From: Cristatella mucedo
Lineage: Eukaryota; Bryozoa; Phylactolaemata; Cristatellidae
DNA: 64,000 nucleotides
Reading direction: 5' to 3'
Assembly (NCBI GenBank): GCA_009760855.2
Contig: WPIO01000183.1
Span: 62,001-126,000, forward strand
The position numbers were made by a program, and so were the translations under genes. Shown piece after piece: positions 1 through 64,000 of this stretch. Below the pieces are notes generated by a model, which had not been told where the DNA came from, did not search any database, and was given only the letters and a program-made list of their open reading frames with translations. Within the stretch, counting starts at the first letter, position 1; the number at the start of each line of letters is the position of its first letter.

Positions 1-958
1 ACGAACATACGTTTCGGAAAGGAAAGACGCGTAAATACTTTTAGGAGGGGATTTACTCGGGACACCCGCGCTTTGAAGGTACTACCAGAAAGATAATAAA
101 TTGTTAAATGACAATATTTAAAGGTAAACGATCCCGAGATGCGTGCGTTGATAAATTTTGCGGCGGCGATAATTTACGCCCGACGCCTGTGGTTTAAAGG
201 CACAACTAGTAGGATAATTCTTGATTTAGTCGGACTAATTCAAACATTAAATGATACATATTTGCCATGGAAAAGACGTGTAATTTGTATGTGGGCGATA
301 AACAGTACTTATTCGGAATGCCTTCGCTTAGAAAGTTGTACCAGTAAGATTATAAATTACGAAATGAGACTATGTATGCAACTGAAGGATATATATTTCT
401 CGAAAAAAACACGCGAAAAGGTTTATACAGGAGATGAGAGCTTTATCGAAACGCTGGCGCTGTGAAGATCGACCAACGGGAAAACGAAGTATTAATTAAG
501 ACTAATAATTGCACTAGAGGACATATATTTCTAAAAGAAAAAAAGCGAAAACAATGCCGGCTTGGGATTTAATGTACCCGCAACGCCGTGGCTTTAAAGG
601 CCCTACAAGCGGGCTTACGAGTTATTCATTAGGACAAATAATAACAAGAGAGCATATACGTTCACGGAGAAAAAGACGCGTCAATGGTTTTAGTATGTGT
701 GATAAGTAACTCGGAACGCCTGCGGATAGAAGATACTGCAAGTAAGATAATAAATATTTATTGAGACTATGTATACAACAAAAGGATATATGTTTCCCAA
801 CGAAAAGACGCCAGCTAAAGGCAAATCGAGCAAGATTGATGCCATCCGCAGCAGCTACCCGTAGCATACGGTTATCGCAAAAGATGTTGACAGTCCGCTC
901 CAGATAGGGGAAGAATTAAATAGGTCGTGGAGACTTGCCGTTGCTTTCAGTGCTCGGG
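1..958 (+). repeat. Partial unit U0 (M4 tail to J)
   Basis: The window opens in the tail of M4. M5 starts near 26, M6 near 138, M7 near 275, M8 near 410, M9 near 543, M10 near 675 and J near 807. Variants such as cgtttcgg and gatgcgtgcg match 5806-6762, two units downstream, better than 2831-3785, one unit downstream. A 108-codon open frame from 139 crosses M6-M8. It is broken by indels in the near-identical stretch of U2, so I do not call it a gene. Confidence 0.85.
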
Positions 959-3785
959 GACGTCATCGGGCTCGAAATAATCGGGTACGTAATAATCAGA
1001 CAAAATAACTGCAAACGTAATAATTAGTTCCGTGGTAATCAGGTACGTAATAATCGGATACGAAACACTTAAAGGTAATAATCGGGCACGTACTATTCGG
1101 GCTCGTATTGTTTGGGCAGATAATAATTGGTGACGTGATAATCGGGTATGAAGTAATAGAGCACCTAATAATCGGTGACGTAGTAATAGAAGACGTAATA
1201 ATCGGTGACGAAAAAAAAAGGGAAATAAAAGTAGGCCTCATAATAATCGGGCGGAGAATAGTCTATGACGTGATAATCGGGTATGTAATAATCAGGCACC
1301 TAATAATCGCGGACGTAATAATCGGGGACGTTGTAATCGGGCTTGTATTGATCGGGCACCTAATAATCGCGGACGTAGTAATCGGGCTTGTATTGATCGG
1401 GCACATAATAATTGGTGACGTGGTAGTCGGTGACGTAATATTCGGGTATGTAATAATCGGGCACTTGATAATCGTGAATGTAATAATCGAGGACGTCATA
1501 ATCGGGGACGAAAAAATAAAGTAAATAAATAAAAGTAGGCCTCATAATAATCGGGCTGATAATAGTCCATGACGTGATAATCGGGTATGTAATAATCAGG
1601 CACCTAATAATCGCGGACGTAATAATCGGGGACGTTGTAATCGGGCTTGTATTGATCGGGCACATAATAAACGGGCTGATGATAATCCGTGACGTGGTAA
1701 TCGGGTATGTAATAATCGGGCACTTGATAATCGTGTACGTAATAATCGAGGACGTAATAATCGGGGACGAAAAAATAAAGTAAATAAATAAAAGTAGGCC
1801 TCATAATAATCGGGCAGATAAGAATCCGTGACGTGATAATCGGGTATGTAATAATCAGGCACCTAATAATCGCGGACGTAGTAATCGGGGACGTAGTAAT
1901 CGGGCTTGTATTGATCGGGCACATAATAATCGGTGACGTGATAATCGGTGACGTGATAGTCGGGTATGTAATAATCGGGCACTTGATAATCGTGCACCTA
2001 ATAATCGCTGCCGTAATAATACAAGAGGTAATAATCGGTGGCGAAAAATCAGGGAAATAAAAGTAGGCCTCATAATAATTGGGGTGATAATAATCCGTGA
2101 CGTGATAATCTGGTATGTCATAATCAGGTACCAAATAATCGCGGACGTAATAATCGGGGACTTAGTAATCGGGCTTGTATTGATCAGGCACATAATAATC
2201 GGTGACGTGATAATCGGGTATGTAATAATCGGGCACTTAATAATCGAGGACGTAATAATCGGGGACTTAATAAACAGGCAAGTAATCATCGGGTACGTAT
2301 AAATCGGGCTCGTACCAATCGGCTCTGTTTATATCGTGTACGTAACAATCGTGTACGCAACAAGGCCTGCGCTTAGAAGCAACTACAAGTAAGATAATAA
2401 AAATTTATTAAGACTATTTATACACCTAAAGGAGATTTGTTTCCTCAAGAAAAGACGCCTGAATGGTTTTAACGGGAAAGATAATTTACTCGGAACGCCA
2501 GGCATTTATAAGAATGTTCTAGCTGCATCACAATGCATTATATTAGACTATTTACAACACTAAAGGATGCATATTTCCAGAAGCAAAGACGCGCAAATGG
2601 CTATAGCAGGAAAATAGCTTACTCGGAATGCCTGTGCTTGGTTGGTACAAGTTGTGAGAAATATATATGCATTCATTGAGACTATTTATAATACTAAAGG
2701 AGCTATATTACCAGAAACGAGGACGCGTAAATGGCTATAGCTTACAAAATAACTTTCTCGAAACGCCGGCGGCTTGAAGGATCGACAAGTTGGATAATGC
2801 AGTACTTGTTAAGACTAATTGTAACAATAACGAACATACGTTCCGGAAAGGAAAGACGCGTAAATACTTTTTGGAGGGGATTTACTCGGGACACCCGCGC
2901 TTTGAAGGTACTACCAGAAAGATAATAAATTGTTAAATGACAATATTTAAAGGTAAACGATCCCGAGACGCTTGCGTTGATAAATTTTGCGGCGGCGATA
3001 ATTTACGCGGGACGCCAGTGGTTTAAAGGCACTACTAGTAGGATAATTCTTGATTTAGTCGGACTAATTCAAACATTAAATGATACATATTTGCCATGGA
3101 AAAGACGTGTAATTTGTTTCAGGCGATAAAAGTACTTATTCAGAATGCCTTCGCTTAGAAGGTTGTACCAGTAAGATTATAAATTACGAAATGAGACTAT
3201 GTATGCAACTGAAGGATATATATTTTTCGAAAAAAACACGCGAAAAGGTTTATACAGGAGATGAGTGCTTTATCGAAACGCTAGCGCTGTGAAGATCGAC
3301 CAACGGGAAAACGAAGTATTAATTAAGACTAATAATTGCACTAGAGGACATATATTTCTAAAAGAAAAAAAGCGAAAACAATGCCGGCTTGGGATTTAAT
3401 GTACCCGCAACGCCGTGGCTTTAAAGGCTCAACAAGCGGGCTGACGAGTTATTCATTAGGACAAATAATAACATGAGAGCATATACGTTCACGGAGAAAA
3501 ACACGCGTCAATGGTTTTAGCACGTGAGATAACTTACTCGGAACGCCTGTGGTTAGAAGATACTACAAGTAAGATAATAAAAATTTACTGAGACTACGCA
3601 TACAACAAAAAGATATATGTTTCTTAAAGAAAAGAAGCCAGCTAAAGGCAAATCGAGCAAGATCGATGCCATCCGCAGCAGCTACCCGTAGCATAAAGTT
3701 ATCGCAAAAGATGTTGACAGTCCGCTCCAGAGAGGGGAAGATGCAAATAAGTCGTGGAGACTTGCCGTTGCTTTCAGTGCTCGGG
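959..3785 (+). repeat. Unit U1, expanded minisatellite
   Basis: Minisatellite 959-2361 (about 1,403 bp), monomers M1-M10 2362-3633, J 3634-3785. The minisatellite carries the aggcctcat marker four times, where an ordinary unit has one, which accounts for its extra length of about 800 bp. The monomer part has the standard length of about 1,270 bp. Confidence 0.87.
1108..2310 (+). repeat. Supra-repeat expansion in U1 (four copies)
   Basis: The word aggcctcat lies near 1232, 1536, 1797 and 2065, giving steps of about 304, 261 and 268 bp. Each supra-repeat runs from aggcctcat through gataatcgggtatg, gggcttgtattgatc and gggcac to a closing run of gacgaaaaa and ataaaagt. The closing run breaks the 15-bp phase. 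Confidence 0.85.
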
Positions 3786-6762
3786 GACGTCATCGGGCTC
3801 GAAATAATCGGGTACGTAATAATCAGACAAAATAACTGCAAACGTAATAATTAGTTCCGTGGTAATCAGGTACGTAATAATCGGATACGAAACACTTAAA
3901 GGTAATAATCGGGCACGTACTATTCGGGCTCGTATTGTTTGGGCAGATAATAATTGGTGACGTGATAATCGGGTATGAAGTAATAGAGCACCTAATAATC
4001 GGTGACGTAGTAATAGAAGACGTAATAATCGGTGACGAAAAAAAAAGGGAAATAAAAGTAGGCCTCATAATAATCGGGCGGAGAATAGTCCATGACGTGA
4101 TAATCGGGTATGTAATAATCAGGCACCTAATAATCGCGGACGTAATAATCGGGGACGTTGTAATCGGGCTTGTATTGATCGGGCACCTAATAATCGCGGA
4201 CGTAGTAGTCGGGCTTGTATTGATCGGGCACATAATAATTGGTGACGTGGTAGTCGGTGACGTAATATTCGGGTATGTAATAATCAGGCACTTGATAATC
4301 GAGCGACGAATAATCGGTGACGTAAAAATAGAAGACGTAATATTCGGTGACGAAATATCAGGTAAATAAAAGAAGGCCTCATAATAATCGGGCTGATGAT
4401 AATCCGTGACGTGATAATCGGGTATGTAATAATCGGGCACTTGATAATCGTGTATGTAATAATCGAGGACGTAATAATTGGGGACGAAAAAATAAAGTAA
4501 ATAAATAAAAGTAGGCCTCATAAAAATCGGGCTGATAATAGTCCATGACGTGATAATCGGGTATGTAATAATCAGGCACCTAATAATCGCGGACGTAATA
4601 ATCGGGGACGTTGTAATCGGGCTTGTATTGATCGGGCACATAATAAACGGGCTGATGATAATCCGTCACGTGGTAATCGGGTATGTAATAATCGAGCACT
4701 TGATTATCGTGTACGTAATACTCGAGGACGTAATAATCGGGAACGAAAAAATAAAGTAAATAAATAAAAGTAGGCCTCATAATAATCGGGCAGATAAGAA
4801 TCCGTGACGTGACAATCGGGTATGTAATAATCAGACACCTAATAATCGCGGACGTAATAATCGGGGCCGAAGTAATCGGGCTTGTATTGATCGGGCACAT
4901 AATAATCGGTGACGTGATAATCGGTGACGTGATAGTCGGGTATGTAATAATCGGGCACTTGATAATCGAGCACCTAATAATCGGTGCCGTAATAATAGAA
5001 GACGTAATAATCGGTGGCGAAAAATCAGGTAAATAAAAGTAGGCCTCATAATAATAGGGCTGATAATAATCCGTGACGTGATAATCGGGTATGTCATAAT
5101 CAGGCACCAAATAATCGCGGACGTAATAATCGGGGACTTAGTAATCGGGCTTGTATTGATCAGGCACATAATAATCGGTGACGTGATAATCGGGTATGTA
5201 ATAATCGGGCACTTAATAATCGAGGACGTAATAATCGGGGACTTAATAAACAGGGAAGTAATCATCGGGTACGTATAAATCGGGCTCGTACCAATCGGGT
5301 CTGTTAATATCGTGTACGTAACAATCGGGTACACAACAAGGCCAGCGGTTAGAAGCAACTACAAGTTAGATAATAAAAATTAATTAAGACTATTTATACA
5401 CCTAAAGGAGATTTGTTTCCTAAAGAAAAGACCCCAGAATGGTTTTAACGGGAAAGATAATTTGCTCGGAACGCCAGGCGTTTATAAGAATGTTCTAGCT
5501 GCATCACAATGCATTATATTAGACTATTTACAACACTAAAGGATGCATATTTCCAGAAGCAAAGACGCGCAAATGGCTATAGCAGGGAAATAGCTTACTC
5601 GGAATGCCTGTGCTTGGTTGGTAGAAGTTGTGAGAAGTATATATGCATTTATTGAGACTATTTATAATACTAAAGGAGCTATATTACCAGAAACGAGGAC
5701 GCGTAAATGGCTATAGCTTACAAGATAACTTTCTCGAAACGCCGGCGGCTTGAAGGATCGACAAGTTGGATAATGCAGTACTTGTTAAGACTAATTGTAA
5801 CAATAACGAACATACGTTTCGGAAAGGAAAGACGCGTAAATACTTTTAGGAGGGGATTTACTCGGGACACCCGCGCTTTGAAGGTACTACCAGAAAGATA
5901 ATAAATTGTTAAATGACAATATTTAAAGGTAAACGATCCCGAGATGCGTGCGTTGATAAATTTTGCGGCGGCGATAATTTACGCCCGACGCCTGTGGTTT
6001 AAAGGCACAACTAGTAGGATAATTCTTGATTTAGTCGGACTAATTCAAACATTAAATGATACATATTTGCCATGGAAAAGACGTGTAATTTGTATGTGGC
6101 GATAACAGTACTTATTCGGAATGCCTTCGCTTAGAAAGTTGTACCAGTAAGATTATAAATTACGAAATGAGACTATGTATGCAACTGAAGGATATATATT
6201 TCTCGAAAAAAACACGCGAAAAGGTTTATACAGGAGATGAGAGCTTTATCGAAACGCTGGCGCTGTGAAGATCGACCAACGGGAAAACGAAGTATTAATT
6301 AAGACTAATAATTGCACTAGAGGACATATATTTCTAAAAGAAAAAAAGCGAAAAACAATGCCGGCTTGGGATTTAATGTACCCGCAACGCCGTGGCTTTA
6401 AAGGCCCTACAAGCGGGCTTACGAGTTATTCATTAGGACAAATAATAACAAGAGAGCATATACGTTCACGGAGAAAAAGACGCGTCAATGGTTTTAGTAT
6501 GTGTGATAAGTAACTCGGAACGCCTGCCGATAGAAGATACTACAAGTAAGATAATAAATATTTATTGAGACTATGTATACAACAAAAGGATATATGTTTC
6601 CCAACGAAAAGACGCCAGCTAAAGGCAAATCGAGCAAGATTGATGCCATCCGCAGCAGCTACCCGTAGCATACAGTTATCGCAAAAGATGTTGACAGTCC
6701 GCTCCAGATAGGGGAAGAATTAAATAGGTCGTGGAGACTTGCCGTTGCTTTCAGTGCTCGGG
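3786..6762 (+). repeat. Unit U2, expanded minisatellite
   Basis: Minisatellite 3786-5337 (about 1,552 bp, five aggcct markers), monomers 5338-6610, J 6611-6762. Its start is nearly base-for-base the start of U1 for about 300 bp and diverges once the supra-repeats begin. The monomer part resembles U0. Confidence 0.87.
3935..5285 (+). repeat. Supra-repeat expansion in U2 (five copies)
   Basis: The aggcctcat markers lie near 4059, 4374 (aaggcctcat), 4513, 4773 and 5040. One step is only about 139 bp, so one supra-repeat is a half-length version; the others are about 260-315 bp. Confidence 0.85.
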
Positions 6763-9700
6763 GACGTCATCGGGCTCGAAATAATCGGGTACGTAATAAT
6801 CAGACAAAATAACTGCAAACGTAATAATTAGTTTCGTGGTAATCAGGTACGTAATAATCGGATACGAAACACTTAAAGGTAATAATCGGGCACGTACTAT
6901 TCGGGCTCGTATTGTTTGGGCAGATAATAATTGGTGACGTGATAATCGGGTATGAAGTAATAGAGCACCTAATAATCGGTGACGTAGTAATAGAAGACGT
7001 AATAATCGGTGACGAAAAAAAAAGGGAAATAAAAGTAGGCCTCATAATAATCGGGCGGAGAATAGTCCATGACGTGATAATCGGGTATGTATTCATCAGG
7101 CACCTAATAATCGCGGACGTAATAATCGGGGACGTTGTAATCGGGCTTGTATTGATCGGGCACCAAATAATCGCGGACGTAGTAATCGGGCTTGTATTGA
7201 TCGGGAACATAATAATTGGTGACGTGGTAATCGGTGACGTAATATTCGGGTATGTAATAATTAGGCACTTGATAATCAAGCACAGAATAATCGGTGACGT
7301 AAAAATAGAAGACGTAATATTCGGTGACGAAATATCAGGTAAATAAAAGAAGGCCTTATATTAATCGGGCTGATGATAATCCATGACGTGATAATCGGGT
7401 ATGTAATAATCAGGCACCTAATAATCGCGGACGTAATAATCGGGGACGTTGTAATCGGGATGGTATTGATCGGGCACCTAATAAACGGGCTGATGATAAT
7501 CCGTGACGTGGTAATCGGGTATGTAATAATCGGGCACTTGATAATCGTGTACGAAATAATCGAGGACGTAATAATCGGGGACGAAAAAATAGAGTAAATA
7601 AATAATAGTAGGCCTCATAATAATCGGGAAAATAAGAATCCGTGACGTGATAATCGGGTATGTAATAATCAGGCACCTAATAATCGCGGACGTAGTAATC
7701 GGGGCCGTAGTAATCGGGCTTGCATTGATCGGGCACATAATAATCGGTGACGTGATAATCGGCGACGTGATAGTCGGGTATGTAATAATCGGGCACTTGA
7801 TAATCGAGCACCTAATAATCGGTGCCGTAATAATAGAAGACGTATTAATCGGTGGCGAAAAATAAGGGAAATAAAAGTAGGCTTCATAATAATCGGGCTG
7901 ATTATAATCCGTGACGTGATAATCGGGTATGTAATAATCAGGCACCTACTAATCGCGGACGTAGTAATCGGGGACGTTGTAATCGGGCTTTTATTGATCG
8001 GGCACATAATAATCGGTGACGTGATAATCGGGTATGTAATAACCAGGAACCTAATAATCAGGAACGTAGTAATCGGGCTTGTATTGATCGGGCCCGTAAT
8101 AACCGATGACGTGATAATCGGTGACGTAATAGTCGGGTATGTAATAATCGGGCACTTGATAATCGAGCACCGAATAATCGGTGACGTAAAAATAGAAGAC
8201 GTAATAATCGGTGACGAAATATTAGGTAAATAAAAGTAGGCCTCATAATAATCGGGCTGATGATTATCCGTGACGTGGTAATCGGGTATGAAATAATCGG
8301 GCACTTGATAATCGTGTACGTAATAATCGAGGACGTAATAATTGGGGACGAAAAAATAAAGTAAATAAATAAAAGTAGGCCTCATAAAAATCGGGCTGAT
8401 AATAGTCCATGACGTGATAATCGGGTATGTCATAATCAGGCACCTAATAATCGCGGACGTAATAATCGGAGACGTAGTAATCGGGCTTGTATTTATCAGG
8501 CACATAATAATCGGTGACGTGATAATCGGGTATGTAATAGTCGGGCACTTAATAATCGAGGACGTAATAATCGGGGACTTAATAAACAGGAAAGTAATCA
8601 TCGGGTACGTATAAATCGGGCTCGTACCAATCGGGTCTGTTAATATCGTGTACGTAACAATCGGGTACACAACAACGCCTGCGCTTAGAAGCAACTACAA
8701 GTAAGATAATAAAAATTAATTAAGACTATTTATACACCTAAAGGAGATTTGTTTCCTAAAGAAAAGACCCCTGAATGGTTTTAACGGGAAAGATAATTTA
8801 CTCGGAACGCCAGGCGTTTATAAGAATGTTCTAGCTGCATCACAATGTATTATATTAGACTATTTACAACACTAAAGGATACATTTTTCCAGAAGCAAAG
8901 ACGCGCAAATGGCTATTGCAGGGAAATCACTTACTCGGAATGCCTGTGCTTGGTTGGTACAAGCAGTAAGAAATATATGTGCATTCATTGAGACTATTTA
9001 TAATACTAAATGAGCTATATTTCCAGAAATGAGGACGCGTAAATGGTTATAGCTTACAATATAACTTTCTCGAAACGCCGGCGGCTTGAATGATCGACAA
9101 GTTGGATAATGCAGTACTTATTAGGACTTATTGTAACAATAACGAACATACGTTTCCGAAAGAAAAGACGCGTAAATGGTTTTAGGAAGGGATTTACTCG
9201 GGACACCCGCGTTTGGAAGTTACTACCAGAAAGATAATAAATTGTTAAATGAGACTATTTTAAGGTAAACGATCCCGAGACGCGTGCGTTGATAAATTTT
9301 GCGGCGGCGATAATTTACGCGGGACGCCTGTGGTTTAAAGGCACTACTAGTAGGATAATTCTTGATTTAGTCGGACTAATTCAAAAATTAAATGATACAT
9401 ATTTGCCATGGAAAAGACGTGTAATTTGTTTCAGGCGATAAAAGTACTTATTCGGAATGCCTGCGCTTAGAAGGTTGTACCAGTAAGATTATAAATTACG
9501 AAATGAGACTATGTATGCAACTGAAGGATATATATTTCCCGAAAAAAACACGCGAAAAGGTTTATACAGGAGATAAGAGCTTTATCGAAACGCTGGCGCT
9601 GTGAAGATCGACCAACGGGAAAACGAAGTATTAATTAAGACTAATAATTGCACTAGAGGACATATATTTCTAAAAAAAAAAAAAGCGAAAACAATGCCGG

Positions 9701-10098
9701 CTTGGGATTTAATGTACCCGCAACGCCGTGGCTTTAAAGGCCCTACAAGCGGGCTGACGAGTTATTCATTAGGACAAATAATAACAAGAGAGCATATACG
9801 TTCACGGAGAAAAAGACGCGTCAATGGTTTTAGTATGTGTGATAAGTTACTCGGAACGCCTGCGGATAGAAGATACTACAAGTAAGATAATAAATATTTA
9901 TTGAGACTATGTATACAACAAAAAGATATATGTTTCCCAAAGAAAAGACGCCAGCTAAAGGCAAATCGAGCAAGATCGATGCCATCCGCAGCAGCTACCC
10001 GTAGCATACAGTTATCGCAAAAGATGTTGACAGTCCGCTCCAGATAGGGGAAGATGCAAATAAGTCGTGGAGACTTGCCGTTGCTTTCAGTGCTCGGG
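6763..10098 (+). repeat. Unit U3, longest minisatellite
   Basis: Minisatellite 6763-8673 (about 1,911 bp, the longest in the window, six aggcct-like markers), monomers 8674-9946, J 9947-10098. It contains the longest open frame of the window, 341 codons on the minus strand at 7669-8694. That frame is an effect of the 15-bp period. Confidence 0.87.
6912..8625 (+). repeat. Supra-repeat expansion in U3 (six copies)
   Basis: Markers lie near 7037, 7351 (aaggccttat), 7611, 7880 (taggcttcat), 8237 and 8372. Steps are about 314, 260, 269, 357 and 135 bp. A stretch with rare words (aaccaggaacc, gggcccgtaataacc) near 8040-8105 is private to this unit. Confidence 0.84.
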
Positions 10099-12305
10099 GA
10101 CGTCATCGGGCTCGAAATAATCGGGTCCGTGGTAATCAGGTACGTAATAATCGGATACGAAATACTTAAAGGTAATAATCGGGCACGTACTGATTGGGCT
10201 CGTGTTGTTTGGGCAGATAATAATTGGTGACGTGATAATCGGGAATGAAGTAATAGAGCACCTATTAATCGGTGACGTAATAATAGAAGACGTAATAGTC
10301 GGTGACGAAAAAATCAGGGTAATAAAAATAGGCCTCATAATAATCGGGCAGATAATAATCCCTGACGTGATAATCGGGTATGTAATAATCAGGCACCTAA
10401 TAATCGTGGACGTAATAATCGGGGACGTAGTAATCGGGCACATAATAATCGGTGACGTGATAATCGGTGACGTAATAGTCGGGTATGTAATAATCGGGCA
10501 CTTGATAATCGCCCACCGAATAATCGGTGCCGTAATAATAGAAGACGTAATAATCGGTGGCGAAAAATCAGGGAAATAAAAGTAGGCCTCATAATAATCG
10601 GGCTGATAATAATCCGTGACGTGATAATCGGGTATGTCATAATCAGGCATTAACTAATCGCTGACGTAAGAATCGGGGACGTAGTAATCGGGCTTGTATA
10701 TATCAGGCACATAATAATCGTTGACATGATAATCGGGTATGTAATAATTGGGCACTTAATAATCGAGGACGTAATAATCGGGGACTTAATAAACAGGGAA
10801 GTAATCATTGTGTACGTATAAATCGGGCTCGTACCAATCGGGTCTGTTAATATCGTGTACGTAACAATCGGGTACGTAACAATGCCTGCCGTTAGAAGGA
10901 ACTACAAGTAAGATAATAAAAATTTATTAAGACTATTTATACACCTAAAGGAGATTTGTTTCCTAAAGAAAAGACGCCTGAATGGTTTTAACTGGAAAGA
11001 TAATTTACTCGGAACGCCAGGCGTTTATAAGAATGTTCTAGCTGCATCACAATGCATTTATATTAGACGATTTACACCACCTAAGGATGCCTACTTCCAG
11101 AAGCAAAGACGCGCAAATGGCTATAGCAGGGAAATAGCTTACTCGGAATGCCTGTGCTTGGTTGGTACAAGTTGTGAGAAATATATATGCATTCATTGAG
11201 ACTATTTATAATACCAAAAGAGCTATATTACCAGAAACGAGGACGCGTAAATGCCTATAGCTTACAAGATAACTTTCTCGAAACGCCGGCGGCTTGAAGG
11301 ATCGACAAGTTGGATAATGCAGTACTTATTAAGACTAATTGTAACAATAACGAAAATACGTTTCCGAAAGAAAAGACGCGTAAATACTTTTAGGAGGGGA
11401 TTTACTCGGGACACCCGCGTTTGGAAGGTACTACCAGAAAGATAATAAATTGTTAAATGAGAATATTTTAAGGTAAACGATCCCGAGACGCGTGCGTTGA
11501 TAAATTTTGCGGCGGCGATAATTTACGCCCGAAGCCTGTGGTTTAAAGGCACTACTAGTAGGATAATTCTTGATTTAGTCGGACTAATTCAAAAATTAAA
11601 TGATACATATTTGCCATGGAAAAGACGTGTAATTTGTTTCAGGCGATAAAAGTACTTATTTGAACGCCAGCGCTTAGAAGGTTGTACCAGTAAGATTATA
11701 AATTACGAAATGAGACTATGTATGCAACTGAAGGATATATATTTCTCGAAAAAAACACGCGAAAAGGTTTATACAGGAGATGAGAGCTTTATCGAAACGC
11801 TGGCGCTGTGAAGATCGACCAACGGGAAAACGAAGTATTAATTAAGACTAATAATTGCACTAGAGGACATATATTTCAAAAAGAAAAAAAAGCGAAAACA
11901 ATGCCGGCTTGGGATTTAATGTACCCGCAACGCCGTGGCTTTAAAGGCCCTACAAGCGGGCTGACGAGTTATTCATTAGGACAAATAATAACAAGAGAGC
12001 ATATACGTTCACGGAGAAAAAGACGCGTCAATGGTTTTAGTATGTGTGATAAGTTACTCGGAACGCCTGCGGATAGAAGATACTACAAGTAAGATAATAA
12101 ATATTTATTGAGACTATGTATACAACAAAAGGATATATGTTTCCCAAAGAAAAGACGCCAGCTAAAGGCAAATCGAGCAAGATCGATGCCATCCGCAGCA
12201 GCTACCCGTAGCATACAGTTATCGCAAAAGATGTTGACAGTCCGCTCCAGATAGGGGAAGATGCAAATAAGTCGTGGAGACTTGCCGTTGCTTTCAGTGC
12301 TCGGG
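10099..12305 (+). repeat. Unit U4, two supra-repeats
   Basis: Minisatellite 10099-10880 (about 782 bp, two aggcctcat markers), monomers 10881-12153, J 12154-12305. It is a size step between the swollen blocks of U1-U3 and the ordinary 570-600 bp blocks downstream. The block start also lacks about 30 bp found in its neighbours: the stretch with gacaaaataactgcaaacg is missing after position 10120. Confidence 0.86.
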
Positions 12306-14291
12306 GACGTCATCGGGCTCGAAATAATCGGGTACGTAATAATCAGACAAAACAACTGCAAACGTAATTATTAGGTCCTTTGTAATCAGGTACGTAATAA
12401 TCGGATACGACAAACTTAAAGGTAATAATCGGACACGTAATAATCGGGCTCGTATTGTTTGGGCAGATAATAATTGGTGATGTGATAATCGGGTATGAAC
12501 TAATAGAGCACCTAATAATCGGTGACGTATTAATAGAAGACGTAATAATCGGTGACGAAAAATCAGGGAAATAAAAGTAGGCCTCATAATAATCGGGCTG
12601 ATAATAATCCGTGACGTGATAATCGGGTATGTCATAATCAGGCATCATTTAATCGCGGACGTAATAATCGGGGACGTAGTAATCGGGCTTGTATTGATCA
12701 GGCACATAATAATCGGTGACGTGATAATCGGGTATGTAATAATCGGGCACTTAATAATCGAGGACGTAACAATCGGGGACTTAAAAAACAGGGAAGTAAT
12801 CATTGGGTACGTTTAAATCGGGCTCGTACCAATCGGGTCTGTTAATATCGTGTACGTAACAATCGGGTACGCAACAAGGCCTGCGCTTAGAAGGAACTAC
12901 AAGTAAGATAATAAAAATTTATTAAGACTATTTATACACCTAAAGGAGATTTGTTTCCTAAAGAAAAGACGCCTGAATGGTTTTAACTGGAAAGATAGTT
13001 TACTCGGAACGCCAGGCGTTTATAAGAATGTTCTAGCTGCATCACAATGCATTTCATTAGACTATTTACAACACTAAAGGATACATATTTCCAGAAGAAA
13101 TGACGCGTAAATGGTTATAGCAGGGAAATAACTTACTCGGAATGCCTGTGCTTGGTTGGTACAAGTAGTGAGAAATATATATGCATTCATTGACACTATT
13201 TATAATAACAAAGGAGCAATATTTCCAGAAATGAGGACGCGTAAATGGTTATAGCTTACAATATAACTTTCTCGAAACGCCGGCGGCTTGAATGATCGAC
13301 AAGTTGGATAATGCAGTACTTATTAGGACTAATTGTAACAATAACGAACATACGTTTCCGAAAGAAAAGACGCGTAAATGGTTTTAGGAAGGGATTTACT
13401 CGGGACACCCGCGTTTGGAAGTTACTACTAGAAAGATAATAAATTGTTAAATGAGACTATTTTAAGGTAAACGATCCCGAGACGCTTGCGTTGATAAATT
13501 TCGCGGCGGCGATAATGTACGCCGGACGCTTGTTGTTAAAAGGCAACACTAGTAGGATAATTATCGATTGAGTCGGACAAATTCTAACATTACCTGATAC
13601 ATATTTGCCACGGAAAACACGTGTGAACTGTTTTAGGCGATAAAAGTACTTATTCGGAACGCCAGCGCTTAGAAGGTTGTACCAGTAAGACTATAAATTA
13701 CGAAATGAGACTACGTATACAACTAAAGGATATATATTTTCCGAAAAAAACACGCGAAAAGGTTTATACAGGAGATCAGAGCTTTATCTAAACGCTGGCG
13801 CTGCGACCAACGGGAAAACGAAGTGTTTATTGAGACTAATAATTACACTAGAGGATATATATTCCTAAAAGAAAAAAGCAAAGACAATGTCGGCTTGGGA
13901 TTTAATGTACCCGCAACGCCGTGGCTTTAAAGGCCCTACAAGCGGGCTGACGAGTTATTCATTAGGACAAATAATAACAAGAGAGCATATACGTTCACGG
14001 AGAAAAAGACGCGTCAATGGTTTTAGTATGTGTGATAAGTTACTCGGAACGCCTGCGGATAGAAGATACTACAAGTAAGATAATAAATATTTATTGAGAC
14101 TATGTATACAACAAAAAGATATATGTTTCCCAAAGAAAAGACGCCAGCTAAAAGCAAATCGAGCAAGATCGATGCCATCCGCAGCAGCTACCCGTAGCAT
14201 TCAGTTATCGCAAAAGATGTTGACAGTCCGCTCCAGATAGGGGAAGATGCAAATAAGTCGTGGAGACTTGCCGTTGCTTTCAGTGCTCGGG
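12306..14291 (+). repeat. Unit U5, ordinary form
   Basis: Minisatellite 12306-12875 (570 bp, 38 x 15), monomers 12876-14139, J 14140-14291. M8 is a little short: the usual gtgaagatc part is missing near 13802. Confidence 0.86.
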
Positions 14292-20052: not shown

Positions 20053-22071
20053 GACGTCATCGGGCTCGAAATAATCGGGTACGTAATAATCAGACAAAAT
20101 AACTGCAAACGTAATAATTAGTTCCGTGGTTATCAGGTACGTAATAATCGGATACGAAATACTGATAGGTAATAATCGGGCACGTACTAATCGGGCTCGC
20201 ATTGTTTGGGCAGATAATAATTGGTGACGTGATAATCGGGTATGAAGTAATAGAGTACCTAATAATCGGTGACGTAATAATAGAAGACGTAATAATCGGT
20301 GACGAAAAAATAAGGGAAATAAAAGTAGGCCTCATAATAATCGGGCAGATAATAATCCGTGACGTGATAATCGGGTATGTAATAATCAGGCACCTAATAA
20401 TCGCGGACGTAATAATCGGGGACGTAGTAATCGGGCTTGTATTGATCGGGCACATAATAATCGGTGACGTGATAATCGGGTATGTAATAATCGGGCACTT
20501 GATAATCGTGCACGTAATAATCGAGGACGTAAAAATCGGGGACGTAAAAATTAAGGACGTGATAAACATGGAAGTAATCATCGGCTACGTATAAATCGGA
20601 CTCGTAATAATCGGGTCTGTTAATATCGTGTACGTAATAATCGGGTACATACCAATGCCTGCGCTTAGAAGGAACTACAAGTAAGATAATAAAAAATTTA
20701 TTAAGACTAGGTATACACATAAAGGATATTTGTTTCCCAAAGAATTGACGCCTTAATGGTTTCAACGGGAAAGATAATTTACTTGGAACGCCGGCGTTTA
20801 TAGGAACGTTCTAGCTGCATAACTATGCATGTCATTAGACTATTTACAACATTAAGGAATTTTTCCAGGAGAAAAGACGCGTAAGTGGTTATAGCAGGGA
20901 AATAGCTTACTCGGAATGCCTGTGCTTGGTTGGTACAAGTAGTGAGAAATATATATGCATTTATTGAGACTATTTATAATACTAAATGAGCTATATTTCC
21001 AGAAAAGAGGACGCGTAAATGGTTATAGCTTACGAGATAACTTTCTCGAAACGCCGGCGGCTTCAAGGATCGACAAGTTGGATAATGCAGTACTTATTAG
21101 GACTTATTGTAGCAATAACGAACATGCGTTTCCGAAAGAAAAGACGCGTAAATGGTTTTAGGAGGGGATTTACTCGGGACACCCGCGTTTAGAAGGTACT
21201 ACCAGAATGATAATAACTTGTTAAATGAGACTATTTTAAGGTAAACGATCCCGAGACGCGCTCGTTGATAAATTTTGCGGCGGCGAATATTTACGCCCGA
21301 CGCCTGTGGTTTAAAGGCACTACTAGAAGGATGATTATTGATTTTGTGAGATTAGTTATAACAAAATTATACATAATTGCCACAGAAAAGACGTGTAAAT
21401 GGTTTTAGGCGATAAAAGTACTTATTCGGGACGCCTGCGCTTAGAAGGTTGTACCAGTAAGATTGTAATTTACGAAATAAGACTTTGTTTACAACTGATG
21501 GATACACGATTTCCGAAAAAAACACGCCCAAATGTTTTTACAGGAGATGACAGCTTTATCGAAACGCTGGCGCCGTGAAGATCGACCGACGGGAAAACGA
21601 AGTAATTAATAAGACTAATTATTGCACCAGAGGATATATATTTCTAAAAGAAAAAAAGCGAAAACATATTCGGCTTGGGATTTAATGTATCCGCATCGCC
21701 GTGGCTTTAAAGGCTCTGCAAGCGGGCTGACGAGTTATTCACTAGGACAAAAAATAACATGAGAGCATATACGTTCACGGAGAAAAAGACGCGTCAATGG
21801 TTTTAGCATGTGAGATAACTTACTCGGAACGCCTGCGGTTAGAAGATACTACAAGTAAGATTTTAAAAATTTATTGACACTATGTATACAACAAAAGGAT
21901 ATATGTTTCCCAAAGAAAAGACGCCAGCTAAAGTCAAAACGAGCACGATCGATGCCATCAGCAGCAGCTACCCGTAGCATACAGTTATCGCAAAAGATGT
22001 TGACAGTCTGCTCCAGATAGGTGAAGATTCCAATAAGTAGTGGAGACTTGCCGTTGCTTTCAGTGGTCGGG
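20053..22071 (+). repeat. Unit U9, ordinary form
   Basis: Minisatellite 20053-20653 (about 601 bp, 40 x 15), monomers 20654-21919, J 21920-22071. Supra-period steps are easy to measure here: gataatcgggtatg lies at 20231, 20366 and 20471, so spacings are 135 (9 x 15) and 105 (7 x 15). The monomers carry more private substitutions than those of U5-U8. Confidence 0.86.
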
Positions 22072-23008
22072 GACGTCATCGGGCTCGAAATAATCGGGTA
22101 CGTAATAATCAGACAAAATAACTGCAAACGTAATAATCAGTTCCGTGGTAATCAGGTACGTAGTAATCGAATACGAAATACTTAAAGGTAATAATCGGGC
22201 ACGTACTAATCGGGCTCGTGTTGTTTGGGCAGATAATAATTGGTGACGTGATAATCGGGTATGAAGTAATAGAGCACCTCATAATCGGTGACGTAATAAT
22301 AGCAGACGTAATAATCGGTGACGAAAAAATAAGGGAAATAAAAGTAGGCCTCATATAAATCGGGCTGATAATAATCCGTGACCTGATAATCGGGTATGTA
22401 ATAATCAGGCACCAAATAATCGCGGACGATATAATTGTGGACGTAGTAATCGGGCTTGCATTGGTCGGGCACATAATAATCAGTGACGTAATAATAGTAG
22501 ACGTATTAATCGGTGTCACAAAAATCAGGGAAATAAAAGTAGGCATCATAATAATCGGGCACATAATAATCGGTGACGTGATAATCGGGTACGTAACAAT
22601 CGGGCACTTGATACTCGTGTACGTAATAATCGAGGACGTAATAATCGGGACGTAATAATCCAGGACGTGATAAACAGCGAAGTAATCATCGGGTACGTAT
22701 GAATCGGGCTCGTAATAATCGGGTCTGTTAATATCGTGTACGTAACAATCGGGTACGTAACAATGCCTGCCGTTAGAAGGAACTACAAGTAAGATAATAA
22801 AAATTTATTGAGACTATGTATAGAACAAAAGGATATATGTCTCCCAAAGAAAAGACGCCAGCTAAAGGCAAATCGAGCAAGATCGATGCCATCCGCAGCA
22901 GCTACCCGTAGCATACAGCTATCGCAAAAAATGTTGACAGTCCGCTCCAGATAGGGGAAGATGCAAAAAAAAAGTCGTGGTGACGTGCCGCTGCTTTCAG
23001 TGCTCGGG
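22072..23008 (+). repeat. Unit U10, minimal unit lacking nine monomers
   Basis: Minisatellite 22072-22761 (690 bp, 46 x 15), one hybrid monomer 22762-22853, J 22854-23008. The hybrid has the head of M1 (ccgttagaaggaactac) and the tail of M10 (attgagactatgtatag). About 1,180 bp is absent from the monomer part, which fits an in-register exchange between M1 and M10. J has a 3-bp longer A-run. Confidence 0.87.
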
Positions 23009-24899: not shown

Positions 24900-26785
24900 G
24901 AAGTCATCGGGCTCGAAAAAATCAGGTACTTAATAATCAGACAAAATGACTGCAAACATAATAATTAGGTCCGTGGTAATCAGGTACGTAATTATCGGAT
25001 ACGAAATACTTAAAGGTAATGATCGGGCTCGTACTAATAGGACTCGTATTGTTTAGGCAGATAATAATCAGTGACGTGATAATCGGGTATTTAATAATCA
25101 GGCACCTAATGATCGCGGATGTAATACTCGGGGACGTAGTAATCGGGCTTGTAATGATAAGGCACAAAATAATCGGTGACGTGATATTCGGGTATGTAAT
25201 CATCGGGCACTTGATAATTGTGTACGTAATAATCGAGGACGTAATAATCGGGGACGTACAAATCAAGGAAGCGATAAATACGGAAGTAATCATCGGGTAC
25301 GTATAAATTGGGCTCGTAATAATCGGGTCTGTTAATGTCGTATACGTAACAATCGGGTACGTAACAATGCCTGCGGTTAGAAGGTACTACAATAAGATAA
25401 TAAAAACCTATTAAGACTATGTGTGCACCTAAAAGAGATTTGTTTCACGAAGAAAAGACGCCTGAATGGTTTTAACGGGATAAATAATTTACTCGGAACG
25501 CCAGCGTTTATAAGAATATTCTAGCTGTATTACGATGCATTTCATTAGACTATTTACAACACTAAAGGATACATATTTCCAGAAAAAATGACGCATCAAT
25601 GGTTATAGCAGGGAAATAGCTTACTCAGAATGCCTGCGCTTATTTAGTACCAGTAGTGAGAAATATATATGCATTCTTTGAGACTGTTTATAATACTAAA
25701 GGAGCTATATTTCCAGAAAAGATGACGCGTAAAAGGTTATAGCTTACAAGATAACTTTCACGAAACGCCGGCGGCTTGAAGGATTGACAAATTGGATAAT
25801 GCAGTACTTATTAAGACTAATTGTTACAATAACGAACATACATTTACGAAAGAAAAGACGCGTAAGTGGTTTTAGGAGGGGATTTACTCGGCAACCGTCG
25901 TATGGAAGGTACTACCAGAAAGATAATAAATTATTAAATGAGACCATTTATAGGGTAAACGATCCCAAGACGCCTGCATTGATAAATTTTGCAGCGGCTA
26001 AAATTTACGCCGCTTGCCTCTGGTTTAAAGGCACTACTAGTAGGATAATTATTGATTTAGTCGGACTAATTCAAACATTAAATGGTACATATTTGCCACG
26101 GAAAAGACGCGTTAACTGTTTTAGGCGATAAAAGTACTTATTCGGAACGCCTGCGCTTATAAGGTTGTACCAGTAAGATTATAAAATACGAAATAAGACT
26201 ATGTATGCAACTTGAGGACATATATTTCCCGAAAAAACACGCTAAAATGTTTATACAGGTGATGACAGTTGTATCGAAAGGCTGGCGCTGTGAAGATCTA
26301 CCGACGGGAAAACGAAGTATTTATTATGACTAATTATTGCACTAGTGAATATAAATTTCTAAAAGAAAAAAAGCAAAAAGAATGTCGGCTGGTGATATAA
26401 TGTACCCGCAACGCCAGGGCTTTAAAGGCACTACAAGCGGGTTGACGAGTTATTCATCAGGAAAATAATAACAACAGAGCATATCCGTTCACGGAGAAAA
26501 AGACGCGTCAATGGTTTTAGCATGTGAGATAACTTACTCAGAACGTCTGCGGATAAAAGATACTACAAGTAAGATAATAAATATTTATTGAGACTATGTA
26601 TGCAACAAAAGGATATACGTTTCCCAAAGAAAAGAAGCCAGCTAAAGGCAAATCGAGCAAGATCGATGCCATCCGCAGCAGCTACCCGTAGCATACAGTT
26701 ATCGCAAAAGATGTTGACAGTCCGCTCCATATAGGGGAAGATGCAAATAAGTCGTGGAGACTTGCCGTTGCTTTCAGTGCTCAGG
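24900..26785 (+). repeat. Unit U12, 466-bp minisatellite
   Basis: Minisatellite 24900-25365 (about 466 bp, no aggcct marker), monomers 25366-26633, J 26634-26785. The minisatellite is a close relative of that of U11. J is back to the ordinary 152-bp type, so the two parts of this unit have different closest relatives. Confidence 0.86.
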
Positions 26786-33363: not shown

Positions 33364-35241
33364 GACGTCATCGGGCTCGAAATAATCGGGTACGTAATAA
33401 TCAGACAAAATAACTGCAAACGTAATACGTAGGGCCGTGGTAATCAGGAACGTAATAATCGGATACGAAATACTTAAAGGTAATAATCGGGCATGTACTA
33501 ATCGGGCTCGTATTGTTTGGGCAGATAATAATCAGTGACGTGATATTCAGGTATGAAAAAATCAGGCACCTAATAATCGCGGACGTAATAATCGGGGACG
33601 TTGTAATCGGGCTTGTATTAATCGGGCACATAATAACCGGTGACGTGATAATCGGGTATGTAATAATCGGGCACTTGATAATCGGGTACGTAATAATCGA
33701 GGACGTAGTAAGCGGGGACGTAATAATCAAGGACGTGATAAACAGGGAAGTAATCATTGGTTCGTATAAATCGGGCTCGTAATAAGTGGGTCTGTTAATA
33801 CCGTGTACGTAGCAATCGGGTATGTAAAAATGCCTGTGGTTAGAAGGTACTACAAGTAAATAATAAAAACTTATCTAGACTATGAATACACCTAAAGGAG
33901 ATTTGTTTCCCAAAAAAAAGACGCCTCAATGGTTTTAGCGGGGAGGATAATTTACTCGGAACGCCGGCGTTTGTAAGAATGTTCTAGCTGCATCACAATG
34001 CACCTTAATAAACTATTTACAACACTAAAGGATATATATTTCCAGAGGAAAAGAGACGTAAATGGTTATAGCAGGGAAATAGCTTACTCGGAATGCCTGT
34101 GCTTGATAGGTACATGTAGTGAGAAATATATGTGCAATCGTTGAGAGTATTTATATTACTAAATGAGCTATATTTCCAGAAAAGAAGACGCGTAAATAGT
34201 TATAACTTAGAAGATAACTTAGTCAAAACCCGGCGGCTAGAAGGATCGACAAGTTAGATAATGCAGTACTTATTAAGAATAATCGTAACATACGTTTGCG
34301 AAAGAAAAGACGCGTAACTGGTTTTAGGAGATTATTTACTCGGGCTACCTGCGTTTGAAAGGTACAACCAGAAAGACAATAAATTGTCAAATGAGACTAT
34401 TTATAGGGTAAACGATCCCGAGACGCGCGCGTTGATAAACTTTGCAGAGGCAATAATTTACCCGGGACGCCTGTGGTTTAATGGCACTACTAGTAGGATA
34501 ATTATAATTTCAGTAAGACTAATTCTAACTTTAAATGATACATAATTGCCTTAGAAAAGACGTGTAAATTGTTTTAGGAGGAAAAGTGCTTTTTTCGGAA
34601 CGCCTGCGCTTAGAAGGTTGTACCAGTAAGATTATAAATTACGAAACGAAACTATGTATACGACTGAAGGATATATATTTCCCAAAAAAAAGACGCGAAA
34701 ATGGTTATACTAGAGATGATAGGTTTATCGAAACGCTGGCACTGTGAAGATCGACCAACGGGAAAACGTAGCATTTATATTGACTAATTATTGCACTAAA
34801 GGATATATATTTCCAACAGAAAAAAAAGCGAAAAAAATGTCGGCTGGGGATATAATTCACCCGCACCTCCAGGTCTTTAAAGGGTCTACGAGCTGGCTGA
34901 CCAGGTAATCATTAGGACGAATGATAACATTAGAGGATATATGTTCACAGGGGAAAAGACGCGTCAATGGTTTTAGCATGTGAGTTAACTTACTCGGAAT
35001 GCCAGCGGTTAGAAGATACTACAAGTACGATAATAAAATTTATTGAGACTATGTATACAACAAAAGGATATATATTCCCGAAGAAAAAAGACGCCAGCTA
35101 AAGGCAAATCGAGCAAGATCGATGCCATCCGCAGCAGCTACCCGTAGCATACAGTTATCGCAAAAGATGTTGACAGTCCGCTCCAGAAAGGGGAAGGTGC
35201 AAATAAGTCGTGGAGACTTGCCGTTGCTTTCAGTGCCCGGG
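33364..35241 (+). repeat. Unit U16, 465-bp minisatellite
   Basis: Minisatellite 33364-33828 (465 bp, no aggcct marker), monomers 33829-35089, J 35090-35241. The duplicate in U20 is nearly identical. The few differences I noticed are mainly single-base length changes in runs of one base. Confidence 0.86.
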
Positions 35242-54292: not shown

Positions 54293-54807
54293 TCGAAACG
54301 CTGGCTCTGTCAAGATCTACATACGGGAAAACGAAGTAATTATTAAGACTAATTATTACACTAAAGGGCATATATTTCTACAGAAAAATAAGCGAACTCA
54401 ATGTCGGCTGAAGATATATAATGTACCAGCAACGCCGAGGCTTTAAAGGCTGTACAAGCGGGCTGACGAGTTCTTCATTAGGACAAATAATAGCATTAGA
54501 AGATATACGTTTACGGTGAAAAAGACGCGTTAATGGTTTTAGCATATGAGATAACTTACTCGGAACGCCTGCAGTTAACAGATACTACAAGTACGATAAT
54601 AAACATTTATTGATAATATGTATAGAACAAAAGGATATATATTTCCAAAAGAAAAGACGCCAGCTAAAGGCAAATCGAGCAAGATCGATGCCATCCGCAG
54701 CAGCTACCCGTAGCGTACAGTTATCGCAAAAGATGTTGACAGTCCGCTCCAGATAGGGGAAGATGCAAATAAGTCGTGGAGTCTTGCCGTTGCTTTCAGT
54801 GCCCGGG
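52823..54807 (+). repeat. Unit U26, first of the tripled units, M1 head deleted
   Basis: Minisatellite 52823-53421 (about 599 bp), monomers from 53422 to 54655, J 54656-54807. About 45 bp spanning the minisatellite end and the M1 head (tgcctgcggttagaagg and following) is missing at 53421. Otherwise it is nearly identical to U27. Confidence 0.87.
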
Positions 54808-56320
54808 GACGTCATCGGGCTCGAAATAATCGGGTACGTAATAATCAGACAAAATAACTGCAAACGTAATAATTAGGTCCGTGGTAATCAGGTACGTAAT
54901 AATCAGATACGAAATGATTAAAAGTAAAAATTGGGCACCTACTAATTGAGCTCGTATGGTTTGGGCAGATAATAATTGGTTACGTGATAATCGGGTATGA
55001 AGTAACAGAGCACCTAATAATCGGTGACGCAATAATAGAAGACGAAATAATAGGTGACGAAAAAATCAGGGAAATAAAAATTTGCCACATAATAATCGGG
55101 CATATAATAATCAGTGACGTGATAATCGGGTACGTAATAATCAGACACCTAATAATCGCGGACGTAATAATCGGGGAGGTAGTAATCGGGCTTGTATTGA
55201 TTGGGCACATAATAATCGGTGACGTGATAATCGGGTATGTAATACTCGGGCACTTGATAATCGGGTACGTAATAATCGAGGACGCAATAATCGGGGACGT
55301 AAAAATCAAGGGTGTGATAAAGAGGGAAGTAATCATCGGGTAAGTATAAATCGGGCTCGTAATAATCGGGTCTGTTAATATCGGATACGTAACAATCGGG
55401 TACGTAACTATGCCTGCGGTTAGAAGGTACTACAAGTAAGATAATACAAATTTATTAAGACTACCTATACGACTAAAGGACATTTATTTCCCTAAGAAAA
55501 GACGCCAGAATGGGTTTAGTGGGAAAGATAATTTACTCGGAAAGCCGGCGTCTTTAACTATCTTCTAGCTGCTTTACACTGTATTTCATTGGACAATTTA
55601 TAACACTTAAGGATACATATTTTCAGAAGAAAGACGCGTAACTGGTTATAGCAGGGAAATAGCTTACTCGGAATGCCTGAGCATGGTAGGTACAAGTAGT
55701 AAGAATTATATAGGCATTCAGTGAGAGTATTTATATTACTAAAGGAGATATATTTCCAGAAAAAAGGACGCGTAAATGCTTATACCTTAGAAGATAACTT
55801 AGTAGAAACGCCGGCTGTTTGAAGGATCTACAAGTTGGATAATGCAGTACTTTTTAAGACTAATTGTAACAATAAAGAACATATACTACTGCGAAAGAAA
55901 AGACGCGTCAATAGTATTAGGAGAGGATTCACTCGTTACTCCCGCGTTTGGAAAGTACTACCAGAAAGAAAATAAATTGTTAAATAAGACTATTTATAGG
56001 GTAAACGATCCCGAGACGCGCTCGTTGATAAATTTTGCAAAGGCAACAATTTACGCGGACGCCTGTGGTTTATTGGCACTACTAGTAGGATAATTATTAA
56101 TTCAGTAAGACTAATTCTAACATTAAATGATACATAATTGCCACATAAAAGAAGTGTAAACTGTTTTAGGAGATAAAAGTACTTTTTCGGAACGCCTGTG
56201 CTTAGAAGGTTGTACCAGTAAGGTTATAAAATACGAAACGAAACTATGTATACGACTGAAGGATATATATTTTCCAAAAAAAAAGACGCGAAAATAGTTA
56301 TACAGGAGATGATAGGTTTA
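54293..56320 (+). repeat. Tripled 2-kb unit, copy D2
   Basis: Near-identical to D1 and D3. A small private difference lies near 54379 (acagaaaaataagcg where D1 and D3 have acattaaataagcg), and a two-base insertion lies in agatatataatg near 54413. Confidence 0.9.
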
Positions 56321-56832
56321 TCGAAACGCTGGCTCTGTCAAGATCTACATACGGGAAAACGAAGTAATTATTAAGACTAATTATTACACTAAAGGGCATA
56401 TATTTCTACATTAAATAAGCGAACTCAATGTCGGCTGAAGATATAATGTACCAGCAACGCCGAGGCTTTAAAGGCTGTACAAGCGGGCTGACGAGTTCTT
56501 CATTAGGACAAATAATAGCATTAGAAGATATACGTTTACGGTGAAAAAGACGCGTTAATGGTTTTAGCATATGAGATAACTTACTCGGAACGCCTGCAGT
56601 TAACAGATACTACAAGTACGATAATAAACATTTATTGATAATATGTATAGAACAAAAGGATATATATTTCCAAAAGAAAAGACGCCAGCTAAAGGCAAAT
56701 CGAGCAAGATCGATGCCATCCGCAGCAGCTACCCGTAGCGTACAGTTATCGCAAAAGATGTTGACAGTCCGCTCCAGATAGGGGAAGATGCAAATAAGTC
56801 GTGGAGTCTTGCCGTTGCTTTCAGTGCCCGGG
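54808..56832 (+). repeat. Unit U27, second of the tripled units
   Basis: Minisatellite 54808-55408 (601 bp), monomers 55409-56680, J 56681-56832. The distance to U28 is exactly that from U28 to U29 by my count (2,025 bp). Only scattered single-base and short-indel differences from U26 and U28 were noticed. Confidence 0.88.
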
Positions 56833-62853: not shown

Positions 62854-64000
62854 GAAGTCATCGGGCTCGAAATAATCGGGTACGAATAAATCAGACAAAG
62901 TAACTGCAAATGTAATAATTTGGTCCGTGGTAATCAGGTACGTAATAATCAGATACGAAATACTTAGAGGTAAGACTCGGGCACGTACTAATCGGGCTCG
63001 TATCGTTTGAGCGCATAATAATGGGTGACATAATAATTGAAGACGAAATAATCGGTGACGAAAAAATCAGGGAAATACAAATAGGCCTAATAATAATAGG
63101 GCAGATAATAATCAGTGACGTGATGATCGGATATGTAATAATCAGGCACCTAATAATCTCGGACATAATAATCGGGGACGTAGTAATCGGGCTTGTATTG
63201 ATCGGGCACATAATAATCGGGCACTTGATAATCGGGAACGTAATAATCGAATACGTAATAATCGGGGACGTAATAGTCTAGGACGTAATAAACAGGGAAG
63301 TAATCATCGGGTACGTGTAAATCGGGCTTGTAATAATCGGGTCTGTTACTATCGTGTACGTAACAATTGGGTACGTAACAATGCATGCGGTTAGAAGGTA
63401 GTACAAGTAAGATAATAAAAATTTATTAAGACTACGTATACACCTAAATAAGATTTGTTTCACAAAGAAAAGACGCCTGAATGGTTTTAACGAGATAGAT
63501 AACTTAATCGGAAAGCTGGCGTTTATAAGAATGTTCTAGCTGCATCACAATGCATTTCATTAGACTATTTACAACACTAAAGGATACATATTTCCAGAAG
63601 AAATGACGCGTAAATGGTTATAGCAGGGAAATAGCTTACTCGGAATGCCTGTGCTTGGTTGGAACAAGTAGTGAGAAATATATATGCATTCATTGAGAAT
63701 ATTTTTAATACTAAAGGAGCTATATTTCCATAAAAGCGGACGCGTAAATGGTTATAGCTTAGAAGAATACTTACTCGAAACGCCGGTGGCTTGAAGGATC
63801 GAGGAGTTGGGTAATGCAGTACCTATTAAGACTAATTGTAACAATAAAGAACATACTTTGGCGAAAGAAAAGACGCGTAAATGGTTTTAGGAGAGGATTT
63901 ACTCGGGACTCCCGCGTTTAGAAGGTACTACCAGAAATTAAATAAATTGTCAAATGAGACTGTTTATAGGGTAAACGTTCCCAAGACGCGCGCGTTGATG
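62854..64000 (+). repeat. Partial unit U31, cut by the window end
   Basis: Minisatellite 62854-63379 (about 526 bp), M1 from 63380, M2 from about 63472, then M3, M4, M5, ending at the head of M6 (gcgcgttgatg). Nothing shows that the array stops here. Confidence 0.85.

Follow-up and report, generated by a model that had tools for sequence, protein, structure and literature searches.

How does a satellite unit come to combine two tandem families of different period with a segment that fits neither? This question is raised by a 64,000-bp stretch of contig WPIO01000183.1 (positions 62,001–126,000, forward strand), hereafter the window, to which all positions below refer. A first-pass annotation had described in it a unit composed of a 15-bp minisatellite, ten 132-bp monomers and an unrelated 152-bp segment, amplified as one block at least 30 times and possibly undescribed in kind. 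Here, the unrelated segment is denoted J, the minisatellite S and the monomers M1–M10. Our analysis indicated that the window probably holds a non-coding eukaryotic composite higher-order repeat (HOR) satellite, in which J–S would have been inserted with a flanking duplication of about 95 bp and then amplified with the surrounding monomers as a block.

Results

A single ordered composite array fills the window

The window was segmented using the ten reference monomers and J as references, and 63,422 of the 64,000 bases were assigned to J, S or M. All units run head to tail on the plus strand, with no minus-strand match of the J and M library in the 64 kb. The unit order J–S–M1–M10 was nearly invariant, so that the three-part unit proposed earlier held over the window, with a unique J core of about 143 bp instead of 152 bp. 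In total, 33 J starts were recorded, of which 31 were full-length and two stopped short at 38 bp, along with 31 S blocks. The median J-to-J interval was 2,008 bp (range, 766–3,336 bp), and 26 of the 32 intervals held every slot from M1 to M10 in the expected sequence; in two of these, a single monomer was matched incompletely (M4 of unit 35096 and M1 of unit 52677). These counts agree with amplification as one block at least 30 times. M10 was followed by J in 33 of 33 cases, the M6–M7, M7–M8 and M8–M9 transitions occurred 33 times each, and J led through S to M1 in 28 of 33. Such a long, head-to-tail, non-coding array, with 33 unit starts on one strand, qualifies as a satellite. Moreover, Tandem Repeats Finder (TRF), a check suggested in the first-pass annotation, returned the 15-bp period across the whole window. 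The minisatellite is indeed length-variable within a near-fixed monomer frame, ranging from 243 to 1,917 bp over its 31 blocks, with a common length of ~609 bp.

The order and slot identity of the monomers are beyond chance. Copies of the same slot in different units (27–33 per slot, leaving out copies covering less than 85% of the reference) showed mean identities of 83.5–89.1%, whereas the slot consensuses were only 54–80% identical to one another, with M1/M10 (92%, 87 of 95 positions) as the sole exception. This pattern is that of an HOR (PMC4053949). In addition, comparisons of S with M, J with M and J with S scored no better than shuffles, a control that runs high because the ten related monomers were shuffled separately. 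The components are therefore unrelated, as originally claimed, and the satellite is composite; derivation of S or of J from M was rejected on these scores.

J–S lies between two copies of a monomer end

Ten slots were found, and they are not ten equal 132-bp monomers as first described: nine have consensus lengths of 113–137 bp, and M1 is a 95-bp partial monomer that resembles the 3′ part of M10 and is 61–80% identical to the other slots. The left junction, GACGCC joined to AGCTAA, was present at 19 of 33 J starts, and GCCTG stood immediately 3′ of S in 21 of 27 cases; the remaining junctions differed mostly by point changes. Both ends of J–S fall within ACGCC-type boxes conserved between monomers. 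The likeness of M1 to the 3′ part of M10, together with the junctions, indicates that M1 duplicates the final ~95 bp of M10 and that J–S stands between the two copies. Judged from these features, J–S looks like an insertion into an older monomer array, after which the block was amplified. Furthermore, the consensus difference between M1 and M10 (8%), compared with roughly 10–15% between most units, suggests that the flanking duplication arose at about the same time as the HOR.

No sign was seen that M10 and M1 on the two sides of a given J–S still convert each other locally: their identity was 0.823 around the same J–S and 0.821 across units, with 29 of 300 permutations as high. Excision by M10×M1 recombination, which would leave M10 running into M2 without J–S, was seen at none of the 33 M10 copies.

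Rearranged units record exchange between like slots

Six intervals (21926, 26640, 31420, 32449, 39130 and 40159) departed from the canonical order. They represent four rearrangements, because the pair 31420/32449 recurs 7.7 kb further on as 39130/40159. The single monomer of unit 21926 agrees with M1 at three diagnostic sites and then with M10 at the following five, the sites being defined from nine M1 and nine M10 copies of neighbouring units. Unit 54662 was 100% identical to unit 56687 from J to M7 and 83, 77 and 86% identical to it in M8, M9 and M10; the corresponding monomers of unit 50735 were 95, 100 and 100% identical to those of unit 54662. Exchange between like slots is shown by these two units and by multi-unit duplications. 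In a unit-to-unit comparison of the 24 units having all eleven parts, identity over J and M was ~100% between units 29397 and 37107, 99% between 33218 and 40925 and between 42802 and 48721, and 96% between 44812 and 50735.

The duplications themselves amount to a further level of repetition on top of the HOR, one at a spacing of ~7.7 kb (29397–35095 and 37107–42801) and one at ~5.9 kb (42802–46696 and 48721–52676), with 96–100% identity in the matched units compared. Units 813–17900 (stretch 813–19906) constitute a homogenised layer of 92–97% identity, and those from 22860 on (22860–62705), duplicated ones aside, are mostly 84–91% alike. Local homogenised layers are a feature of layered centromeric arrays.

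J and the start of S vary less than the monomers

The 31 full J copies showed a mean pairwise identity of 92.8%. The mean fraction of copies off consensus was 0.040 in J versus 0.063–0.101 across the ten M slots, and in 20-bp blocks variability was 0.038 in J versus 0.076 in M (block permutation p 0.0001, an optimistic value because the copies are not independent). The first ~60 bp of S was likewise little variable (0.027–0.042). J distances scaled with those of the unit's other parts (slope 0.57, intercept about 0), and identical J segments were found in 0 of 233 distant unit pairs; slower divergence therefore fits somewhat better than recent spread. The latter count also disfavours wholesale recent conversion as the means of conserving J. 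The lowered variability falls mainly at G/C sites, and GC-biased conversion was rejected, as weak-to-strong changes were not raised in J. Taken at face value, a J and S start about half as variable as M suggests weak constraint, for example at a putative bound site. On the other side, no segment correlated less with the rest of the unit than J did (r 0.46), and slopes like that of J, with positive intercepts, were also found for M10 (0.55) and the start of S (0.48), so that the low divergence of J may partly reflect exchange.

No constrained reading frame was detected in the 31 J copies by six-frame stop counts and synonymous fractions. The RNA fold of positions 800–975 (J with flanks) was no better than shuffles (z −0.65 and +0.90 on the two strands), and no excess DNA folding was found in the J consensus, the ten M consensuses or four S pieces.

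S carries CENP-B-box-like sites

The CENP-B-box core TTCGNNNNANNCGGG was found at ≤1 mismatch at 95 sites (five exact and 90 with one mismatch) versus 10.9 ± 3.2 in shuffles. All 95 lie on the plus strand, inside or at the start of S, at about three per unit. The S consensus variants match 7–8 of the nine core bases, and in 20,000 trials random 15-mers of S composition reached at least eight in 0.15% and at least seven in 2.1%. Since the variants already carry 7–8 of nine, the 95 sites are in effect one coincidence, repeated. In most of the one-mismatch sites listed, the missing base was the first T or the second. The motif was picked with the array already in view, so that the likeness stays a lead only, although published claims of CENP-B-box-like motifs have rested on 4–5 of nine bases in Meloidogyne (PMC3694981) and on five of nine elsewhere (PMC7644632).

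The boundary between the end of J and the minisatellite is gradual. In the first three units (956–8676), S is 2–3 fold longer than common, and TRF detected longer internal periods there (259 bp in the first two units and 139 bp in the third). Only one of the 31 S blocks was open along its whole length in one frame, and none in the other five frames. Stop codons are infrequent on the minus strand of S (2.2–3.7 per 100 codons), which accounts for the long open reading frames (ORFs) of up to 341 aa at 7669–8694; the ORF scan of this region gave a weak, sub-cut-off Extensin_1 match.

Composition and database searches

The observed/expected CpG ratio was 1.58 overall (S, 2.05; M, 1.40; J, 0.90), and transitions at M CpG sites occurred at 1.2–1.6 times the rate at other C/G sites. 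This excess, together with the low transition ratio in M, makes heavy CpG methylation of the array unlikely. A contrary indication comes from J, in which C-to-T changes at CpG were 4.3 times those at other C (12 of 248 versus 9 of 806 site-copies); the corresponding ratio for G was 1.6, and changes in J are few. Overall, the array is probably a satellite of a eukaryote, and probably one without heavy CpG methylation. Such a low level would suit an invertebrate or a fungus better than a vertebrate or a plant. A positive AT skew of 0.16–0.17 on the plus strand is common to all three unrelated parts.

Rfam gave no match at gathering scores over the whole 64 kb, and none, ribosomal RNA (rRNA) included, at E up to 1 for positions 1–3000. 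A Pfam scan of five of the 29 listed ORFs of at least 120 aa left two without any match; the other three had weak Extensin_1 matches far under the cut-off, one of them with Cohesin_HEAT as well, likewise below cut-off. Plasmid and phage searches with positions 1–6000 returned no match. Neither did exact patterns of one J, one M and one S in viral contigs, nor one exact J pattern in prokaryote genome contigs; as exact patterns, these would miss distant relatives. In the literature, judged on titles and abstract openings, no satellite with this composite unit was found, and matches to the S core string concern turtle environmental DNA and snake identification.

Table 1. Positions of the array, of one canonical unit and its parts, of rearranged units and of motif sites in the window
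Feature	Position	Strand	Basis
Composite HOR satellite array	1..64000	+	TRF, segmentation, slot transitions
Example canonical unit J–S–M1..M10, 1,986 bp	12160..14145	+	Segmentation
J, unrelated 143-bp segment	12160..12302	+	Segmentation
S, 15-bp minisatellite (TAATAATCGGGNACG-like), 575 bp	12303..12877	+	TRF, segmentation
M array: M1 (95-bp partial monomer) and M2–M10	12878..14145	+	Segmentation
M1, resembles 3′ part of M10, right-hand flanking copy (end approximate)	12878..12972	+	Consensus comparison
M10, left-hand copy of flanking stretch, adjoins next J	14013..14145	+	Segmentation
Longest unit, with an expanded S of 1,917 bp	6617..9952	+	Segmentation, TRF
Short unit, J–S followed by one M1/M10 hybrid; M1×M10 crossover removed M1–M9	21926..22859	+	Diagnostic bases
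Long unit with a junction between M9 position 30 and M3 position 59	26640..29396	+	Segmentation
Two shortened units (S 243 bp to M6; truncated J 38 bp to M5)	31420..33217	+	Segmentation
Recurrence of the shortened-unit pair	39130–40924	+	Segmentation
Exchange product at M7/M8	54662..56686	+	Slot identities
Exact TTCGNNNNANNCGGG (CENP-B-box core) in S	33761..33775	+	Motif scan
Other exact TTCGNNNNANNCGGG sites in S	41468, 45355, 51322, 60883	+	
Further full J starts (a)	813, 3640, 6617, 9953, 14146, 16155, 17900, 19907, 21926, 22860	+	
Further full J starts (b)	24751, 26640, 29397, 31420, 33218, 35096, 37107, 39130, 40925, 42802	+	
Further full J starts (c)	44812, 46697, 48721, 50735, 52677, 54662, 56687, 58712, 60726, 62706	+	

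Discussion

The order of the array and its flanking stretch allow a construction history to be proposed. Diverged 132-bp monomers would first have formed a tandem array. A foreign J–S, or J carrying a seed of S, would then have entered a nine-monomer stretch of it where one monomer ended, and repair of a staggered break may have left ~95 bp of that monomer on either side, now seen as M10 and M1. J–S and its nine-and-a-part monomers then multiplied as a unit of ~2 kb; block copying is evident from the array, and the route may have been unequal exchange or rolling-circle reinsertion. Subsequently, S would have changed in length, presumably by slippage and exchange in the 15-bp register, and the M frame mainly by exchange between like slots.

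Several observations weigh against this history. Single M1 and M10 copies average just 82% identity, and M10 is the monomer nearest to most others (0.60–0.80). The junction-in-box test is weak, as 16% of 6-mer windows are equally conserved (joint value, 0.025). Neither an empty site, that is, an array copy lacking J–S, nor an end of the array occurs within the 64-kb window. The M1–M10 likeness could be due to later conversion, M1 and M10 could once have been adjacent at the array's edge, which the amplified unit then took in, and the near-identical 7.7-kb blocks could in part be an assembly artefact.

The last of these derivations of M1 and M10 can be developed into an alternative without insertion, in which J–S bordered the M array where it ended; a circle spanning that edge would have been excised and amplified by rolling circle, and its closure within a monomer would have left M1 truncated. 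The truncated M1 fits such a closure. Also in favour of edge capture are the lack of terminal inverted repeats and, by eye, of a classical short target-site duplication at the junctions (the window holds no empty site for comparison). Edge capture alone does not predict an M1 that is 92% like M10 and 61–80% like the other slots, and we regard it as unlikely while giving it some weight. J–S could also be the remnant of a mobile element with an internal minisatellite, which is compatible with insertion as the origin of the insert. It is foreign in sequence, J is foreign in composition (GC, 0.49 versus 0.37 in M), and mobile elements with internal repeats are published sources of satellites (PMC4079207). 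However, the first 80 bp of J scored a mean of 12.2 against the reverse complement of the last 80 bp of S over 31 units, compared with 12.8 for shuffles, so that the terminal inverted repeats of a DNA transposon were not found, and no protein remnant appeared in the five ORFs scanned. The flanking likeness of ~95 bp is also too long, as we know of no transposase that makes flanking duplications of this length. A transposon origin is thus distinctly unlikely. Where these alternatives and those below are compatible with the insertion history, their probabilities overlap with that of the history itself.

Two further readings concern function. The unit could be a centromere platform, with S as a CENP-B-box-like array, J as a second bound site and the whole kept for function, which would also be compatible with insertion. 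The excess of sites, their confinement to one strand of S, the rarity of eight-of-nine matches among random 15-mers and the lower variability of J are consistent with such a role; the site count is inflated by repetition of what is in effect one motif, seven-of-nine matches are far less rare, the first T or the second is missing from most of the one-mismatch sites listed, the choice of motif was post hoc and no excess folding potential was found. To our knowledge, many eukaryotes have no clear CENP-B counterpart. On balance, we consider this platform quite improbable. More specifically, J and the start of S may be a selected element (binding site or promoter), and S a tunable CENP-B-like site array imported into a centromeric satellite; the chance of this is slight, and if true, the unit would be a centromere-competent module assembled by insertion, with site number varying freely in a fixed frame. 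Ribosomal DNA spacers are commonly length-variable and made up of unique segments along with subrepeats of several families, and the array could accordingly be pictured as an intergenic spacer (two subrepeat families and a promoter-like J) that lost its genes. No adjacent rRNA gene was found within the 64-kb window in the Rfam searches described above, which leaves this origin highly improbable.

HORs with unrelated parts seldom show so readable a construction history as the one proposed here. The ~95-bp stretch flanking the insert would tie the insert to the birth of the HOR, and unit 21926 indicates that this stretch also acts as a recombination site. In unit 54662, copies lying far apart have exchanged in register. 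With its slower divergence, J offers a concrete place to seek function in satellite DNA.

Alpha-satellite-type HORs consist of diverged monomers in fixed order, with homogenised units, local layers and block duplications. The array shares these traits and differs in having two non-monomer components and unequal slot lengths. In bovine satellite 1.711b, the satellite unit is interrupted by an unrelated insert and both are amplified together, a likeness of structure. The length of that satellite is given as ~2.6 kb (PMC7644632). Tetris/TIR-220 of Drosophila virilis, in which tandem repeats inside a mobile element feed satellite growth, resembles the putative inserted element in its internal tandem repeats; here, no terminal inverted repeats were found and the repeat is 15 bp instead of 220 bp (PMC4079207). 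The Tribolium madens TmSat4/(AC)n composite, and the Penaeus vannamei satellite/CCTAA composite cited with it, likewise alternate satellite monomers with a short-period repeat in a composite array. In these, the short-period part is a microsatellite, and the available part of the report, which calls such records scarce, notes no unique J-like segment and no ten-slot HOR (PMC13081366).

A further close parallel is found in Meloidogyne chitwoodi and M. fallax, whose HORs are made of unrelated satellites, with an element inserted in a monomer array and junctions at conserved motifs, one of them CENP-B-box-like (PMC3694981). There, an equivalent monomer length was extruded, whereas ~95 bp is duplicated here; the CENP-B likeness involves 4–5 of the nine essential bases, compared with 7–8 by consensus here; and no minisatellite is noted in the available part of that report, compared with S in this array (PMC3694981). 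The suggestion that the unit is undescribed in kind is therefore not supported: the array is a real, well-ordered composite HOR satellite of a known kind, with published structural precedents in HORs of unrelated satellites and in satellite/microsatellite composites (PMC3694981, PMC13081366). Three features set it apart from them: the minisatellite lying within a HOR of ten slots, the duplication of ~95 bp on either side of the insert, and the slower evolution of J.

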